Counted from the first letter of the stretch, positions 53,019-59,505 are shown. The stretch: DNA of 64,000 bases from Pelagibacteraceae bacterium AG-359-E06 (GCA_003280495.1 QCET01000002.1:35610-99609), one strand, 5' to 3'. Program-made: numbers and translations. The notes: generated by a model from the letters alone, not told the origin.

Positions 53019-53095
53019 GGCGGGATAGCTCAGTTGGTTAGAGCACGGGACTCATAAGCCCGGGGTCGGCAGTTCAACTCTGCCTCCCGCTACCA
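53019..53095 (+). tRNA. tRNA with CAT anticodon (elongator Met most likely), CCA encoded
   Basis: Cloverleaf GGCGGGA..TAGCTCAGTTGGTTAGAGC..CTCATAA..GTTCAACTC..TCCCGCTACCA. Confidence 0.95.
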
Positions 53096-53106
53096 TTTGA
53101 CTAATA

Positions 53107-53583
53107 GTGGAAAAATTTTTGAAAATTATATTTAAAAATATGAGAATATATTTATCTTTAGTATTAATTTTTTTTACAACTGATAGTTTATCATTAAATC
53201 ACAATATTGTAGGAACAATTAAAAAATCATCGATTAAAACAACACAATTTAACGAAGGTAAAGCTCTTTATTTAAAGAACTGCGCGTCCTGTCATAAAAA
53301 AAATTTATCAGGTCAAATAAATTGGGATGCGAAACTAGATAAAGACGGCCACAGACTTGCTCCTCCAATGAATGGAGATGGACACACCTGGCATCATGAC
53401 GATAGTACACTTTTTTACATCACAAAATATGGATTAGGTAGATATGTAAAAAATTACAAAGGTAAAATGGGGGGTTTTTCAGATAAGCTGACTGATAACC
53501 AAATTAAGAATGTTTTAGCTTATGTTAAATCGTACTGGCCGGAAAAAAAATATCGATATCAACTTAAACTAAATGAAAGGTAA
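53107..53583 (+). CDS. c-type cytochrome (monoheme); GTG start or alternative ATG at 53140
   Basis: NCASCHKKNLSGQINWDAKLDKDGHRLAPPMNGDGHTWHHDDSTLFYITKYG. Confidence 0.85.
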   Translation: MEKFLKIIFKNMRIYLSLVLIFFTTDSLSLNHNIVGTIKKSSIKTTQFNEGKALYLKNCASCHKKNLSGQINWDAKLDKDGHRLAPPMNGDGHTWHHDDSTLFYITKYGLGRYVKNYKGKMGGFSDKLTDNQIKNVLAYVKSYWPEKKYRYQLKLNER

Positions 53584-53587
53584 TATA

Positions 53588-54091
53588 ATGAAAAAATTAA
53601 TTTTATTAACTGTATTCATGCAGATATCTTTTAATGTATTTGCAGCACCAATGAAAATGATTGGCACAAAAGGTAAAATTTCTGAAGTAAGTAAAACAAT
53701 TAAAATCTCAATGTATGATAATTATTACGAACCCAAAGTTATTAACGTTAAGAAAAATGAAACCATAAAATTTATTGTAGAAAACAAAGGTATGCTCGTG
53801 CATGAATTTAATATCGCTACAATGAAAATGCATAAAAAACATGGTCCCGAAATGCTTGAAATGATGAAAAAAGGTATTTTGCTTCCCACTAAAATTAATA
53901 AAATAAAAATGAAAGAAATGTCTAAGCACGATAAAAAAATGGCACATAGTCATTCGAATAGCGTTTTGCTTGAACCAAATAAATCTGGAGAGTTAATCTG
54001 GAAATTCTCAACAAACGCCGATTTATACGTAGGATGTAATGTACCAGGTCATTTGGAGGCCGGGATGATTTCAAAAATTAATATTAACTAA
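53588..54091 (+). CDS. Cupredoxin-domain periplasmic protein with Met/His-rich insert
   Basis: Signal peptide, MLVHEFN, YVGCNVPGHLEAGM copper site. Confidence 0.85.
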   Translation: MKKLILLTVFMQISFNVFAAPMKMIGTKGKISEVSKTIKISMYDNYYEPKVINVKKNETIKFIVENKGMLVHEFNIATMKMHKKHGPEMLEMMKKGILLPTKINKIKMKEMSKHDKKMAHSHSNSVLLEPNKSGELIWKFSTNADLYVGCNVPGHLEAGMISKININ

Positions 54092-54094
54092 ATA

Positions 54095-54538
54095 ATGGAT
54101 TTAGCACTAAAAAACTTTCACTGGAGATGTAAAAATACTTGGATTAAAAGTGCGAAGAATACACTTTGGTGCGTTTTTGGATGTTCAATAGGCGATTTTG
54201 GAACAATTCTTTTTTTCCAACTCACAAAAATACCTTTCCCTATACTTGGTATTATGACATTGGCTATAATTAATGGGTTGATTACTAGCATTTTATTAGA
54301 AACTTTTATTCTTTTAAAACAAAATTTTAGTCTTAAAGATGCAATTAAAACTGCATTTGGAATGAGTTTTATATCTATGTTATCAATGGAAATCGCGATG
54401 AATTTGACTGACTATCTCTTAACTGGAGGAGCAATTTTGACATGGTGGGTGATACCTATCATGTTATTAGTAGGTTTTTTAACACCTTGGCCATATAATT
54501 ATTGGAGATTAAAAAAATTTAATGAGTCTTGTCATTAA
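54095..54538 (+). CDS. DUF4396-like membrane protein
   Basis: 147 aa, four TMs; FGMSFISMLSMEIAMNLTDYLLTGG, TPWPYNYWRLKK. Confidence 0.7.
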   Translation: MDLALKNFHWRCKNTWIKSAKNTLWCVFGCSIGDFGTILFFQLTKIPFPILGIMTLAIINGLITSILLETFILLKQNFSLKDAIKTAFGMSFISMLSMEIAMNLTDYLLTGGAILTWWVIPIMLLVGFLTPWPYNYWRLKKFNESCH

Positions 54539-54544
54539 AAATAT

Positions 54545-55072
54545 TTAATGTCCTGGAAACTTTATTAAACTAAAAGATTTATAATCTTTTTTCTCTAATT
54601 TTTCGTTACCAGGCAAATCGAATAAATTAATTAAAAATATATATCCCGCGACTTTCCCTTTGCATTTTTCAATTAGTTTCGCTGCAGCAAGAGCTGTGCC
54701 ACCTGTTGCTATCAAGTCATCAACAATTAATATTCTATCATTTTTTTTGACTGATCTTTTATGTACCTCAATTGTTGCTTTTCCATATTCTAAGGTAAAT
54801 TTTTGTGAAATTCTTTTATCTGGAAGTTTATTTTTCTTTCTTAACAATATTAGAGGTTTTTTTTCTAAATACGCAAGCACAGAAGCAAAAATAAAACCCC
54901 TAGACTCAATAGCTGCAAGCTTATTATGAGGTATTTTTTTTGTAATTTTATACATTCTTTTTATAGTTGTATTAAATGCTTTCTTATTTTCTAATAGAGA
55001 TGTGATATCTCTAAAAAGAATACCTTTTTTAGGATAATCAGGAATTGATTTAATTGTTTTTTCTAATTTCAT
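54545..55072 (-). CDS. apt: Adenine phosphoribosyltransferase
   Basis: PDYPKKGILFRDITSLL, ESRGFIFAS, ILIVDDLIATGGTALAA. Confidence 0.95.
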   Translation of the reverse strand: MKLEKTIKSIPDYPKKGILFRDITSLLENKKAFNTTIKRMYKITKKIPHNKLAAIESRGFIFASVLAYLEKKPLILLRKKNKLPDKRISQKFTLEYGKATIEVHKRSVKKNDRILIVDDLIATGGTALAAAKLIEKCKGKVAGYIFLINLFDLPGNEKLEKKDYKSFSLIKFPGH

Positions 55073-55107
55073 TATAAGAATAATTAATATAATTAAGTTA
55101 ATTAGTC

Positions 55108-55974
55108 ATGAGTAAATTAGGAATAATCGGTGGTAGTGGTTTATATAATATAGAGGGTTTATCTAACGAAAAGTGGATAAAAGTTAAAACTCCATGGGGT
55201 GAACCATCTGACCAAATTCTAGAGGCAAAATTTGCAAAACAAAGCTTTTGTTTTATGCCAAGACATGGAAGGGGACATTTGATATCCCCATCTAATATAA
55301 ATTTCCGAGCTAATATAGATGCACTTAAACAACGGGGAGTGACCGATATAATTTCAGTATCCGCAGTTGGCTCTTTGAAAGAAGAACTTGAACCTGGTAA
55401 ATTTGTTATAATCGATCAATTTATTGATAGAACCTTCGCGAGAAAGAAAACTTTTTTTGACAATGAAATAGTTGCGCATGTTTCAATGGCTCATCCAACG
55501 TCGAAATCTTTGATGGACGCATGCGAGTCATCTATTAAAAAATTAAAAATTCCCTTTCAACGAGGAGGTACGTATGTAGCCATGGAGGGACCGCAATTTT
55601 CCTCATTAGCAGAGTCGCAATTATACAGATCATGGAAAGCTGACGTTATAGGCATGACAAATATGCCAGAAGCAAAACTAGCAAGAGAGGCAGAAATTCG
55701 TTATGCTTCAATATCAATGGTAACAGATTACGATTGCTGGCATCCAGACCACGAGAATGTAGATGTTCAACAAGTTATTAAAGTGTTGCTAGAAAACGCA
55801 TCAAAAGCAAAAGATATGATAAAAGATATTATAGAAAATTACACAAAGTATGTTGATGATAAAGATCCTGCAACAAAATGCTTAGACATTGCGATCATTA
55901 CTGATCCAAAAAAAAGAACAAAAAAAACAATAAAAAAGTTAGCAACTATTGCAGGCAGGGTTTTAAAAAAATGA
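55108..55974 (+). CDS. mtnP: S-methyl-5'-thioadenosine phosphorylase
   Basis: GIIGGSGLYNIEGL, FMPRHGRGH, AMEGPQFSSLAES, GMTNMPEAKLAREAEI. Confidence 0.94.
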   Translation: MSKLGIIGGSGLYNIEGLSNEKWIKVKTPWGEPSDQILEAKFAKQSFCFMPRHGRGHLISPSNINFRANIDALKQRGVTDIISVSAVGSLKEELEPGKFVIIDQFIDRTFARKKTFFDNEIVAHVSMAHPTSKSLMDACESSIKKLKIPFQRGGTYVAMEGPQFSSLAESQLYRSWKADVIGMTNMPEAKLAREAEIRYASISMVTDYDCWHPDHENVDVQQVIKVLLENASKAKDMIKDIIENYTKYVDDKDPATKCLDIAIITDPKKRTKKTIKKLATIAGRVLKK

Positions 55975-57023
55975 AAATTGCAGGTGAGAATTATAGAACT
56001 ATATGGTTTGAGCCTTCAGAAAAAGTTGTTAAAATTATTGATCAAACAAAATTACCTTTCAATTTTGAAGTTATTTCCCTAAATAATTTTATTGATGCAT
56101 TTAATGCTATTAAGGAAATGAAAGTAAGAGGAGCGCCACTTATTGGAGCGACAGCAGCTTATGGTTTATATTTAGCTTCCAAAGAAAAAGAAGATATTAA
56201 TTTTGTGAAGGAAAAGGCCAAAGAGATAAAAAAAGCAAGACCGACAGCTGTAAATTTATCTTGGGCTGTAAATAGAATTTTAAATAAAGTGAACGCTCAA
56301 AACATTACACACTCTATACTGGAAGAGTGTATTAAAATATGCGAAGAAGATATAAAGATCTGTGAACAAATTGGAGAACATGGATTACAAATATTACAGA
56401 AAATTAAAAAGAAACAAATTAATATCCTTACGCATTGTAATGCAGGATGGTTAGCTACGATTGATTGGGGAACTGCTACAGCGCCAATTTATAAAGCAAG
56501 AGACGAGGGCATTGATCTTAATATTTGGGTAGATGAGACTAGACCTAGAAACCAGGGTTCATCTTTAACATCTTACGAATTAATTCACGAAAAAATAAAT
56601 CATAAAGTGATAGCAGATAATACAGGAGGTTTATTAATGCAAAGAGGTGAAGTGGATTTGTGTATAGTTGGTACAGATAGGGTTAGCAAAAATGGTGATG
56701 TTGCAAATAAAATCGGAACTTATTTAAAAGCTTTGGCAGCCAAAGATAACAATATCCCGTTTTATGTAGCTCTTCCTAGCACAACTTATGATCCAAATTT
56801 AGAGAATGGAGGTCTCATTCCAATTGAAGAAAGATCTGATGATGAGCTAAAGCAAGTCGTTGGTGTAGATGAAGATAATACTATCAGAAAAGTAAATATT
56901 TATCCAAAAAATACAAAAGGTCTTAATTTGGGGTTTGATATTACCCCAGCAAATTTAATTAGTGGATTTATAACTGAAAAAGGAGTCTTTAAGCCCGAGG
57001 ATATAAAAAAAATATTACAATGA
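55971..57023 (+). CDS. mtnA: S-methyl-5-thioribose-1-phosphate isomerase
   Basis: KVRGAPLIGATAAYG, LTHCNAGWLAT, WVDETRPRNQGSSLTSYEL, GTDRVSKNGDVANKIGTY. Confidence 0.95.
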   Translation: MKIAGENYRTIWFEPSEKVVKIIDQTKLPFNFEVISLNNFIDAFNAIKEMKVRGAPLIGATAAYGLYLASKEKEDINFVKEKAKEIKKARPTAVNLSWAVNRILNKVNAQNITHSILEECIKICEEDIKICEQIGEHGLQILQKIKKKQINILTHCNAGWLATIDWGTATAPIYKARDEGIDLNIWVDETRPRNQGSSLTSYELIHEKINHKVIADNTGGLLMQRGEVDLCIVGTDRVSKNGDVANKIGTYLKALAAKDNNIPFYVALPSTTYDPNLENGGLIPIEERSDDELKQVVGVDEDNTIRKVNIYPKNTKGLNLGFDITPANLISGFITEKGVFKPEDIKKILQ

Positions 57024-57661
57024 ATTCACTAAAAATTAAAAAGGAAATTATAAGATATTCAAAATTGCTTAATACCACCAATCTTTCTCCTCTTAGATCA
57101 GGCAATATCTCAGTTAGATATAAAAATGGTTTTTTTATTACTCCTAGTGGTAAAAAATATTCAAGCTTAAGATCTAGTGATATTGTTTTTGTTTCTTTAG
57201 AGGGACGCTACTTAAAGAAACATACCCCTTCATCGGAATGGAGGTTCCACAGAGATATATATAAGGCAAAAAAATACTCAGGATCAATTGTTCATTGTCA
57301 CTCACATAATGCCTTAATATTATCATGTTTAAGAAAAAAAATTCCGTCCTTTCACTATATGGTTGCAGTGGCAGGTGGTGAGGATATTAGATGCGCAAAA
57401 TACGATACCTTCGGTACTTCAAAATTATCTAAAAATATTATTATATCGTTAAAAGATCGGAAGGCTTGTCTGATAGAGAACCACGGGCAAGTGGCATTTG
57501 ATATTAATTTATCAACAGCCTTTGAGCTAGCACAAGAGGTTGAGTATCTTGCGAGTCAGTATATAGATTGTCTAAGAGTTGGAAAACCAAAACTTTTGTC
57601 GTATACTTTAATGAGAAAAGTATTAAAAAAGGTTAAAAACTATAAAAAGGGAGATACCTAA
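57020..57661 (+). CDS. Class II aldolase/adducin family protein (candidate 5-methylthioribulose-1-P aldolase)
   Basis: 213 aa; LRSGNISVRYKNGFFITPSGKKY, SSEWRFHRDIYKAKKYSGSIVHCHSHNA; ATGA overlap with mtnA. Confidence 0.85.
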   Translation: MNSLKIKKEIIRYSKLLNTTNLSPLRSGNISVRYKNGFFITPSGKKYSSLRSSDIVFVSLEGRYLKKHTPSSEWRFHRDIYKAKKYSGSIVHCHSHNALILSCLRKKIPSFHYMVAVAGGEDIRCAKYDTFGTSKLSKNIIISLKDRKACLIENHGQVAFDINLSTAFELAQEVEYLASQYIDCLRVGKPKLLSYTLMRKVLKKVKNYKKGDT

Positions 57662-58702
57662 ATGGTTAAAGTTGGAGATCATATAACTTTAGATTTTTTA
57701 GGAGTTAAAGAAGATTACACGCCAGAATTTTACGAAAAAGTAATAAATAAAATTGCAAAAGCAGCAAAAGTAGGAATTATCAATATATCAAAATACGAGT
57801 TTTCACCCCAAGGACTTACAATGGTAGCATTACTAAAAGAAAGCCATATGAGCTTTCACACTTTTCCTGAACACGGTATTATAAGTTTTGATTTCTTTAC
57901 ATGCGGAAGAATTAATCCAAATGTTTCTTTAAATATTCTAAAAAAAGAAATAAATCATTCTTGTGTTGTTAAAAAAGAGTTTTCAAGAGATACGATACAT
58001 CATTATCATGATATTTATAGTTCTGATGGGTACAAGAAATCCTATGTAGTTGAAAAAATAATTAAAGATTTTAAATCTAAAATGGGCCAGCATATTGAAA
58101 TCTTAAAACTCAAAGAGTTTGGAAATGCATTATTTATTGATAACGAAATACAGGTTGCTGAAAAAGATGAAAAGCTTTATTCGTCAACATTTGTTAACTC
58201 TGGTTTAAAGCTTTCAAAAAAAAATAATTCCGCTGCAATTATAGGAGGAGGAGATGGCGGAGTCGCAAGAGAATGTATCAATAATAACTTTAATTACATT
58301 GACTGGTTTGAATTAGATGAAGAAGTAGTGAAAGCATGCCAAATGTATTTACCCACTGTTTTTAAAAATGTTAATAAAAGCAATAAAGTTAATTGCATTT
58401 GGGGTGATGCATTTAAAAACATTAAAAAATGTGAAAATGAAAAATACGATCATTTGTTCATAGATTTAAATGATGATCAGTATTGTATTAACCTTGCTGA
58501 AAAAAATATCTCTGAGATTAAAAGAATTGTAAAATCTAATGGAGTTATAACAGCTCAAGTTGGCTCTAAAAATAAAAAACCCCGTCAAGTTGATAGTTGG
58601 TTAAAAACATTTGATAAAGCATGTGGTAATTGCGAAATATCTGAAATCTTTATTCCAAGTTTTGATTGTAGTTGGAATTTTGTAAGCTCGATAAATAGGT
58701 AA
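57662..58702 (+). CDS. SpeD-like AdoMet decarboxylase domain fused to aminopropyltransferase (spermidine/spermine synthase-like)
   Basis: 346 aa; N-term LLKESHMSFHTFPEHGIISFDFFTCG (SpeD pyruvoyl motif), C-term AAIIGGGDGGVARECI (SpeE motif). Confidence 0.88.
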   Translation: MVKVGDHITLDFLGVKEDYTPEFYEKVINKIAKAAKVGIINISKYEFSPQGLTMVALLKESHMSFHTFPEHGIISFDFFTCGRINPNVSLNILKKEINHSCVVKKEFSRDTIHHYHDIYSSDGYKKSYVVEKIIKDFKSKMGQHIEILKLKEFGNALFIDNEIQVAEKDEKLYSSTFVNSGLKLSKKNNSAAIIGGGDGGVARECINNNFNYIDWFELDEEVVKACQMYLPTVFKNVNKSNKVNCIWGDAFKNIKKCENEKYDHLFIDLNDDQYCINLAEKNISEIKRIVKSNGVITAQVGSKNKKPRQVDSWLKTFDKACGNCEISEIFIPSFDCSWNFVSSINR

Positions 58703-58704
58703 TT

Positions 58705-59505
58705 TTGAAATTTAAAGTAGCATGTATCCAGTTATGTTCATCATATAATGTAGATGAAAATCTCTCTAAAATTTTACATTATTCAAAAAAAGCAATCGAG
58801 GATAATGCTGAATTTATTACAACTCCTGAAAATTCGTCATTATTTTCTTTAGATAAACAAGAACTTCTCTCAAAGGCGGAGAGTTTTGAAAATAATAATT
58901 TTATAAAAGCGATTTGTGATTTTGTGAAAACAAATAAAATATGGTTTTTGATTGGTGGAATGCCAGTCAAAGATAAAAATAATAAATTATTTAATAGATC
59001 TATTTTAATAGATCAGAGTGGAAAAGTTGTTAATTATTATGATAAGATACACATGTTCGATGTAAAACTACCAAATGGTGAAATATATGAAGAGTCAAAA
59101 AAATTTCAAGCTGGTAACAGTTTGAAAATTCACAACTTGCCATGGGGTAAAATTGGCTTAACAATATGCTATGATCTAAGATTTCCGTTAATGTATCGAA
59201 AACTTACTAAAGATGGAGCAATTTTTATTTCAGTTCCATCTGCATTTACTAAAAATACAGGAGAAAGACACTGGCATATTTTGTTAAAAGCACGTGCAAT
59301 AGAAAATATGTGTTATATTTTTGCGCCAGCACAAACTGGAATTCACCCAAATCAAAGAGAAACTTATGGCCACTCACTTATTATTTCACCAGATGGAGAA
59401 GTGTTAGCTGAAAAAAAAGATGGCGAAGGAATACTTTTGGCTGATGTTGATACAGAACTTGTTACAAGACTTAGAGCTCAAATACCAAGTCTAGATCAAG
59501 ATTAA
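58705..59505 (+). CDS. Carbon-nitrogen hydrolase (nitrilase superfamily, Nit1/deaminated glutathione amidase-like)
   Basis: TTG start; KIHMFDVKLPNGEIYEES, GLTICYDLRFPLMYRKL. Confidence 0.87.
   Translation: MKFKVACIQLCSSYNVDENLSKILHYSKKAIEDNAEFITTPENSSLFSLDKQELLSKAESFENNNFIKAICDFVKTNKIWFLIGGMPVKDKNNKLFNRSILIDQSGKVVNYYDKIHMFDVKLPNGEIYEESKKFQAGNSLKIHNLPWGKIGLTICYDLRFPLMYRKLTKDGAIFISVPSAFTKNTGERHWHILLKARAIENMCYIFAPAQTGIHPNQRETYGHSLIISPDGEVLAEKKDGEGILLADVDTELVTRLRAQIPSLDQD

Follow-up and report, generated by a model that had tools for sequence, protein, structure and literature searches.

A predicted MtnP-type DHAP shunt beside spermidine synthesis genes in SAR11 bacteria

The route from MtnP through MtnA to the aldolase Ald2 is one of two variants of the DHAP shunt (PMC10986504), and it is established in Rhodopseudomonas palustris, where it makes DHAP and methylthioacetaldehyde, and in Rhodospirillum rubrum (PMC5893883). 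The SpeD-aminopropyltransferase (SpeD-APT) fusions of two cultured Ca. Pelagibacter strains make spermidine, spermine and thermospermine in E. coli (PMC11107197). In a study of polyamines in SAR11, MTA appears only in a figure legend, and neither mtnP nor any aldolase is mentioned (PMC8437039). A search of the open literature, to which a 2020 survey of the pathway did not belong, gave no description of this shunt for SAR11; this is no proof of novelty.

SAR11 are the most abundant bacteria of the ocean and need reduced sulfur. Their way of disposing of MTA decides the fate of the carbon and sulfur in this toxic by-product of polyamine synthesis: reuse, excretion as methylthioribose, or release as a methylthio-aldehyde, an alcohol or possibly methanethiol.

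The window, by which we mean the whole 64-kb stretch of DNA that was analysed, lies on contig 2 of a MAG of 842 kb that is 79.6% complete. Among the matches listed, Ca. Pelagibacter MAGs and HIMB114 are nearest to it, which places it in SAR11 and the family Pelagibacteraceae. The locus at 54545-58702 begins with apt (adenine phosphoribosyltransferase, 175 aa, 54545..55072, minus strand; TIGR01090 200 bits, cut-off 186), which is divergent from mtnP with 35 nt between them. On the plus strand follow mtnP, encoding S-methyl-5'-thioadenosine phosphorylase (288 aa, 55108..55974; NF006492 451 bits, cut-off 437; TIGR01694 310 bits, cut-off 275), mtnA, encoding 5-methylthioribose-1-phosphate isomerase (350 aa, 55971..57023; TIGR00512 408 bits, cut-off 279), a class II aldolase gene of the FucA/DrdA type (213 aa, 57020..57661; PF00596 156 bits), and speDE, a speD-speE fusion for S-adenosylmethionine decarboxylase and aminopropyltransferase (346 aa, 57662..58702; PF02675, PF17284 and PF01564). 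In the product of the last gene, SpeD-APT, the AdoMet_dc domain is N-terminal and the spermine/spermidine synthase domain C-terminal. The mtnP/mtnA and mtnA/aldolase junctions each overlap by 4 nt, and the aldolase gene abuts speDE. Reading frames, sequence and protein families agree with the gene content and order given in the first-pass annotation, including its head-to-tail genes with overlapping or abutting junctions.

Further downstream, 2 nt after speDE, starts a nitrilase-family (CN_hydrolase) gene (58705..59505, plus strand, TTG start; PF00795). Its best model, deaminated-glutathione amidase, is below cut-off, and among the loci read it adjoins speDE only in genera g1, g9 and g12. No RNA regulator was found at the locus, and the whole window yields one tRNA only (53019-53092). 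The gene arrangement is kept in dozens of SAR11 genomes and is therefore not due to chance.

The components of the DHAP shunt are present at the locus: an MTA phosphorylase, a methylthioribose-1-phosphate isomerase and an mtnA-linked FucA-type aldolase with intact metal and acid/base residues. We put the probability at roughly 85% that the locus is a spermidine-synthesis operon with its own by-product disposal, by the MtnP variant of the shunt. In substrate, direction and physiological role the pathway is predicted as follows. SpeD-APT would decarboxylate SAM and transfer aminopropyl groups, releasing MTA, which MtnP would split by phosphorolysis into adenine, to be salvaged by Apt, and methylthioribose-1-phosphate. 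MtnA would convert the latter to methylthioribulose-1-phosphate, and the metal-dependent aldolase would cleave this, giving DHAP and 2-(methylthio)acetaldehyde. MtnP, MtnA and the aldolase probably dispose of 5'-deoxyadenosine from radical-SAM reactions as well, which would give acetaldehyde.

The proposal of a DHAP shunt had been made from the window sequence, and part of it stands: the enzyme set is that of the published MtnP variant, the aldolase is not MtnB, and no MtnB, MtnC or MtnD scores above cut-off in the 120 genomes searched. However, a second substrate, 5'-deoxyadenosine, is just as plausible. The accompanying claim of complete recycling of MTA goes too far, as a fate is assigned only to adenine and three carbons and none to the methylthio-aldehyde. 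No gene of a dehydrogenase for this aldehyde is linked to the locus in the window.

One set of 120 genomes, 72 from the family of the window and 48 from a sister family, was searched for the aldolase, mtnA, mtnP, speDE, MtnB, MtnC, MtnD, the FGGY kinase and the aldolase/dehydrogenase fusion described below; 42 of these genomes are at least 90% complete. MtnB, MtnC and MtnD were found above curated cut-offs in none of the 120, that is, the genome of origin (80% complete) and 119 relatives, so that the absence noted earlier for the window extends to this whole set. With MtnP, mtnK is not needed.

These numbers bear on the reading that the aldolase-family protein is the MtnB dehydratase of classical methionine salvage, with the remaining genes in the 20% that the assembly lacks. 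MtnB does belong to the same superfamily and the MtnB model TIGR03328 gives the protein 62 bits, the most that any MtnB model does. However, the cut-off of that model is 137, the three enzymes are missing from the more complete genomes as well, and aldolases head the list of matching solved structures, on which human MtnB (APIP) comes only at rank 45. We consider this reading extremely unlikely, and on profile scores and the lack of MtnC and MtnD we reject a role as MtnB. Weak and partial matches to the MtnC profile, with scores of up to 26 bits (cut-off 128) in 42 relatives, probably belong to other HAD-type proteins.

The aldolase scores 179-194 bits against FucA-type models, and its residue numbering is that of E. 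coli FucA. In the alignment E73, H92, H94, H155, Y113, N29, S71 and S72 are kept in the SAR11 aldolases and in E. coli Ald2, and in a wider set all of these are invariant except S72, which is once a T. From what is known of FucA and DrdA, we take H92, H94 and H155 to be metal ligands and N29, S71 and S72 to form the phosphate site. An AlphaFold model built with no templates (pLDDT 86) matches the FucA structure with a TM of 0.92 and DrdA (6btd/6btg) with 0.87-0.88.

In a tree of 26 sequences, from which R. rubrum Ald2 was left out and whose deep forks are weak (64/87), the window aldolase groups with uncharacterised aldolases that adjoin mtnA in other Alphaproteobacteria; FucA-type aldolases are found beside mtnA in other alphaproteobacterial families too. 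In the same tree E. coli FucA is the partner of E. coli Ald2 (100/99), which lies apart from the window aldolase, so the specificity assigned to the latter is based on gene context, not on the tree. The comparison with Ald2 and MtnB suggested earlier is answered in one half: the protein is not MtnB, but in this tree it does not group with E. coli Ald2. Activity on methylthioribulose-1-phosphate may therefore have had more than one origin among FucA-like ancestors.

FucA, DrdA, Ald2 and the ribulose-1-phosphate aldolases of halophiles have a common fold and common catalytic residues. The substrate is therefore not fixed by sequence, and the one proposed here is read from gene context.

A sugar substrate has to be considered, since the best NCBIfam and PDB matches of the aldolase are named L-fuculose-phosphate aldolase. 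Relatives of about 45% identity belong to alphaproteobacterial operons for sugar use, together with FGGY kinases and ABC transporters, and 13 of the 33 SAR11 genomes with the window-type aldolase have an FGGY kinase. The protein could then serve sugar catabolism, cleaving L-fuculose- or L-rhamnulose-1-phosphate, and be a neighbour of mtnA by position only. However, it scores below the fucA equivalog cut-offs, and every SAR11 genome with an intact window-type aldolase also has mtnA. Further, no FGGY kinase (PF00370) was found in the genome of origin (about 80% complete) or in 19 other carriers, among them the two genus mates, HIMB114 and the complete genomes G005, G010, G022 and G050, which leaves these genomes with no known way of making fuculose- or rhamnulose-1-phosphate. 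For carriers without any FGGY kinase we reject a role in L-fucose or rhamnose use, and overall we find the sugar reading very unlikely.

Methylthioribulose-1-phosphate as the substrate is favoured by the pairing of mtnA with an aldolase across SAR11. Within the family of the window mtnA occurs in 54 of 72 genomes. Each of the 54 has one or the other of two class II aldolases, never both: 33 have the window (FucA) type, one of them broken (G046), and 21 a 680-aa fusion of an aldolase with a short-chain dehydrogenase. Among the 18 genomes without mtnA either of these aldolases is present in one only (G012), where the contig ends inside the fusion gene. In the sister family mtnP and mtnA are found in only 2 of 48 genomes, and in precisely these the fusion comes straight after mtnA. 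Fisher values for the pairing are about 1e-15, a significance that is overstated as related genomes are treated as independent. In the sister family there are also weak aldolase matches, class II proteins of about 250 aa and 21-24% identity that by contig coordinates lie beside FGGY kinases; we set these aside as a different pathway.

The pairing is not the result of one inherited event, as about seven changes of slot type are needed on a tree of speDE, where a genome of the window type (G024) nests with strong support within fusion-type genomes. The slot in question lies between apt, its divergent neighbour in nearly all relatives, and speDE. In the SAR11 loci read it holds either mtnP-mtnA-aldolase, or mtnP, mtnA, a variable cargo and the fusion, the last on the opposite strand, or one short gene resembling MTA nucleosidases. 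The latter is complete in G013, G026 and G039 and a remnant in G031, while G047 has mtnP and a remnant of the aldolase. The nucleosidase-like genes do not reach the cut-offs for MTA/SAH nucleosidases; their products are putative MTA nucleosidases. As an alternative filler such a gene points to MTA as the common substrate, and the repeated exchange of one aldolase type for the other at the same place is strong comparative evidence of function.

It is also conceivable that the main substrate of the shunt is 5'-deoxyadenosine from radical-SAM enzymes, or imported MTA or 5-deoxynucleosides, and not the MTA made by SpeD-APT. Both DrdA and E. coli Ald2 act on 5-deoxyribulose-1-phosphate (PMC6079011, PMC10986504), and the two sister-family genomes with mtnP, mtnA and the fusion have no detectable SpeD-APT. 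In the family of the window, however, mtnA always occurs together with speDE, save in one incomplete genome (G014), and genus g6 lacks mtnA and all other slot genes as well as speDE. The position of the slot between apt and speDE and its occasional nucleosidase-like content also argue against this reading, which we regard as unlikely. A role for 5'-deoxyadenosine beside MTA fits all observations, and the two probably coexist.

The fusion gives the most novel lead. It passes NF006192 with 887 bits (cut-off 639). In a set of 385 alphaproteobacterial genomes mtnA is present in 66 of the 69 carriers of close homologues and in 1 of the 12 carriers of remote, RhaEW-like ones, and in 23 genomes of nine families the fusion lies 50-154 nt downstream of mtnA. 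At three of the four rhizobial and devosial plasmid loci read, it is found beside a sugar ABC transporter and mtnK, and at the two of these that were read further mtnA comes after mtnK; at the fourth, on p42a of Rhizobium etli, neither mtnK nor mtnA is found in the stretch read.

In SAR11 the fusion stands in place of the window-type aldolase between mtnA and speDE, and in at least nine further families of Alphaproteobacteria it comes straight after mtnA, so that the SAR11 locus appears to be an exchangeable MTA-disposal cassette. We think it fairly probable that the generically annotated NF006192-type fusion is a second, non-orthologous enzyme of the DHAP shunt, which would cleave methylthioribulose-1-phosphate or 5-deoxyribulose-1-phosphate and oxidise the released aldehyde in one polypeptide. 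Against this counts that aldolases of the RhaD type normally prefer the opposite configuration at C4. In the open literature we found no paper that connects bifunctional aldolases with methylthioribulose or with mtnK. The swapping gives a widespread protein a testable role, and what merits further study here is the exchangeable aldolase/dehydrogenase module.

In comparison with known systems, the fusion has the domain architecture of RhaEW, a rhamnulose-1-phosphate aldolase fused to lactaldehyde dehydrogenase. RhaEW yields DHAP and lactate with NAD+ and gives a biochemical precedent for the architecture (PMC3870299). However, the mtnA-linked fusions fall below the rhamnulose-1-phosphate aldolase/dehydrogenase model (457 vs 568 bits) and pass a separate one, NF006192.

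The DrdK-DrdI-DrdA system of Bacillus thuringiensis, which disposes of 5-deoxyribose, has an isomerase and a FucA-type aldolase as in SAR11, but it is entered through a kinase and includes no polyamine gene, and DrdA is 33-34% identical to the SAR11 aldolase. In the shunt of E. coli ExPEC (Pfs, MtnK, MtnA and Ald2) a nucleosidase and a kinase stand where SAR11 has MtnP. Its MtnA is 51% identical to that of SAR11 (window MtnA against the DHAP-shunt cluster of E. coli S88), and its Ald2 is FucA-type and of equal length, with 38% identity.

The MtnP variant of R. rubrum and R. palustris shares its three classes of enzyme and the predicted reactions with the SAR11 locus, and has no requirement for MtnB, MtnC or MtnD. 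The difference is that in SAR11, with its streamlined marine genome, gene order ties the set to spermidine synthesis. The methylthio-aldehyde formed in SAR11 may end as methylthioethanol, methanethiol or ethylene. The DHAP shunt itself is already known; the SAR11 locus is very likely a case of it that is coupled to spermidine synthesis.

In 22 SAR11 genomes the window-type class II aldolase is swapped for a longer enzyme, in which a class II aldolase and a short-chain dehydrogenase are fused in one polypeptide. Such a fusion also adjoins mtnA, or mtnK-mtnA, in many Alphaproteobacteria outside SAR11. Among the stretches read from other genomes (L numbers), it is located at L054:3070-5109, L070:5192-7216, L161:1501-3543 and L238:5007-7061.

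A different exchange is seen in two SAR11 genera: here the interval between apt and speDE, the SpeD-aminopropyltransferase gene, holds an MTA/SAH nucleosidase-like gene instead of the entire mtnP-mtnA-aldolase block. This gene is short, about 178 aa (L073:3269-3805, L228:5838-6344 and L229:5241-5774).

In fusion-type SAR11 (L055, L056, L057, L058, L065) variable cargo genes stand between mtnA and the fusion gene, including an SMR transporter, an Ldh_2 dehydrogenase, an enoyl-CoA hydratase with a CoA-binding protein, and others. In two genomes of the sister family, G076 (stretch L070) and G114, mtnP, mtnA and the fusion gene are consecutive, in G076 with apt immediately upstream; no match to the SpeD-aminopropyltransferase fusion was found in either genome.

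In the window, a nitrilase-family gene (58705-59505) starts 2 nt after speDE. It is present at that place in genera g1, g9 and g12, while most other SAR11 loci read have amino-acid ABC transporter genes there. Just upstream of apt, genes for a cytochrome c, a cupredoxin-like protein and a DUF4396 membrane protein are consecutive (53107-54538); DUF4396 is likewise near apt in g12.

On rhizobial and devosial plasmids, the fusion enzyme is accompanied by mtnK and mtnA, by split transketolase genes and by a gene for a RuBisCO-like protein (L240:4702-10122, L241:5186-10617), adjoining a sugar ABC transporter; this gene set constitutes a putative 5-substituted-ribose pathway.
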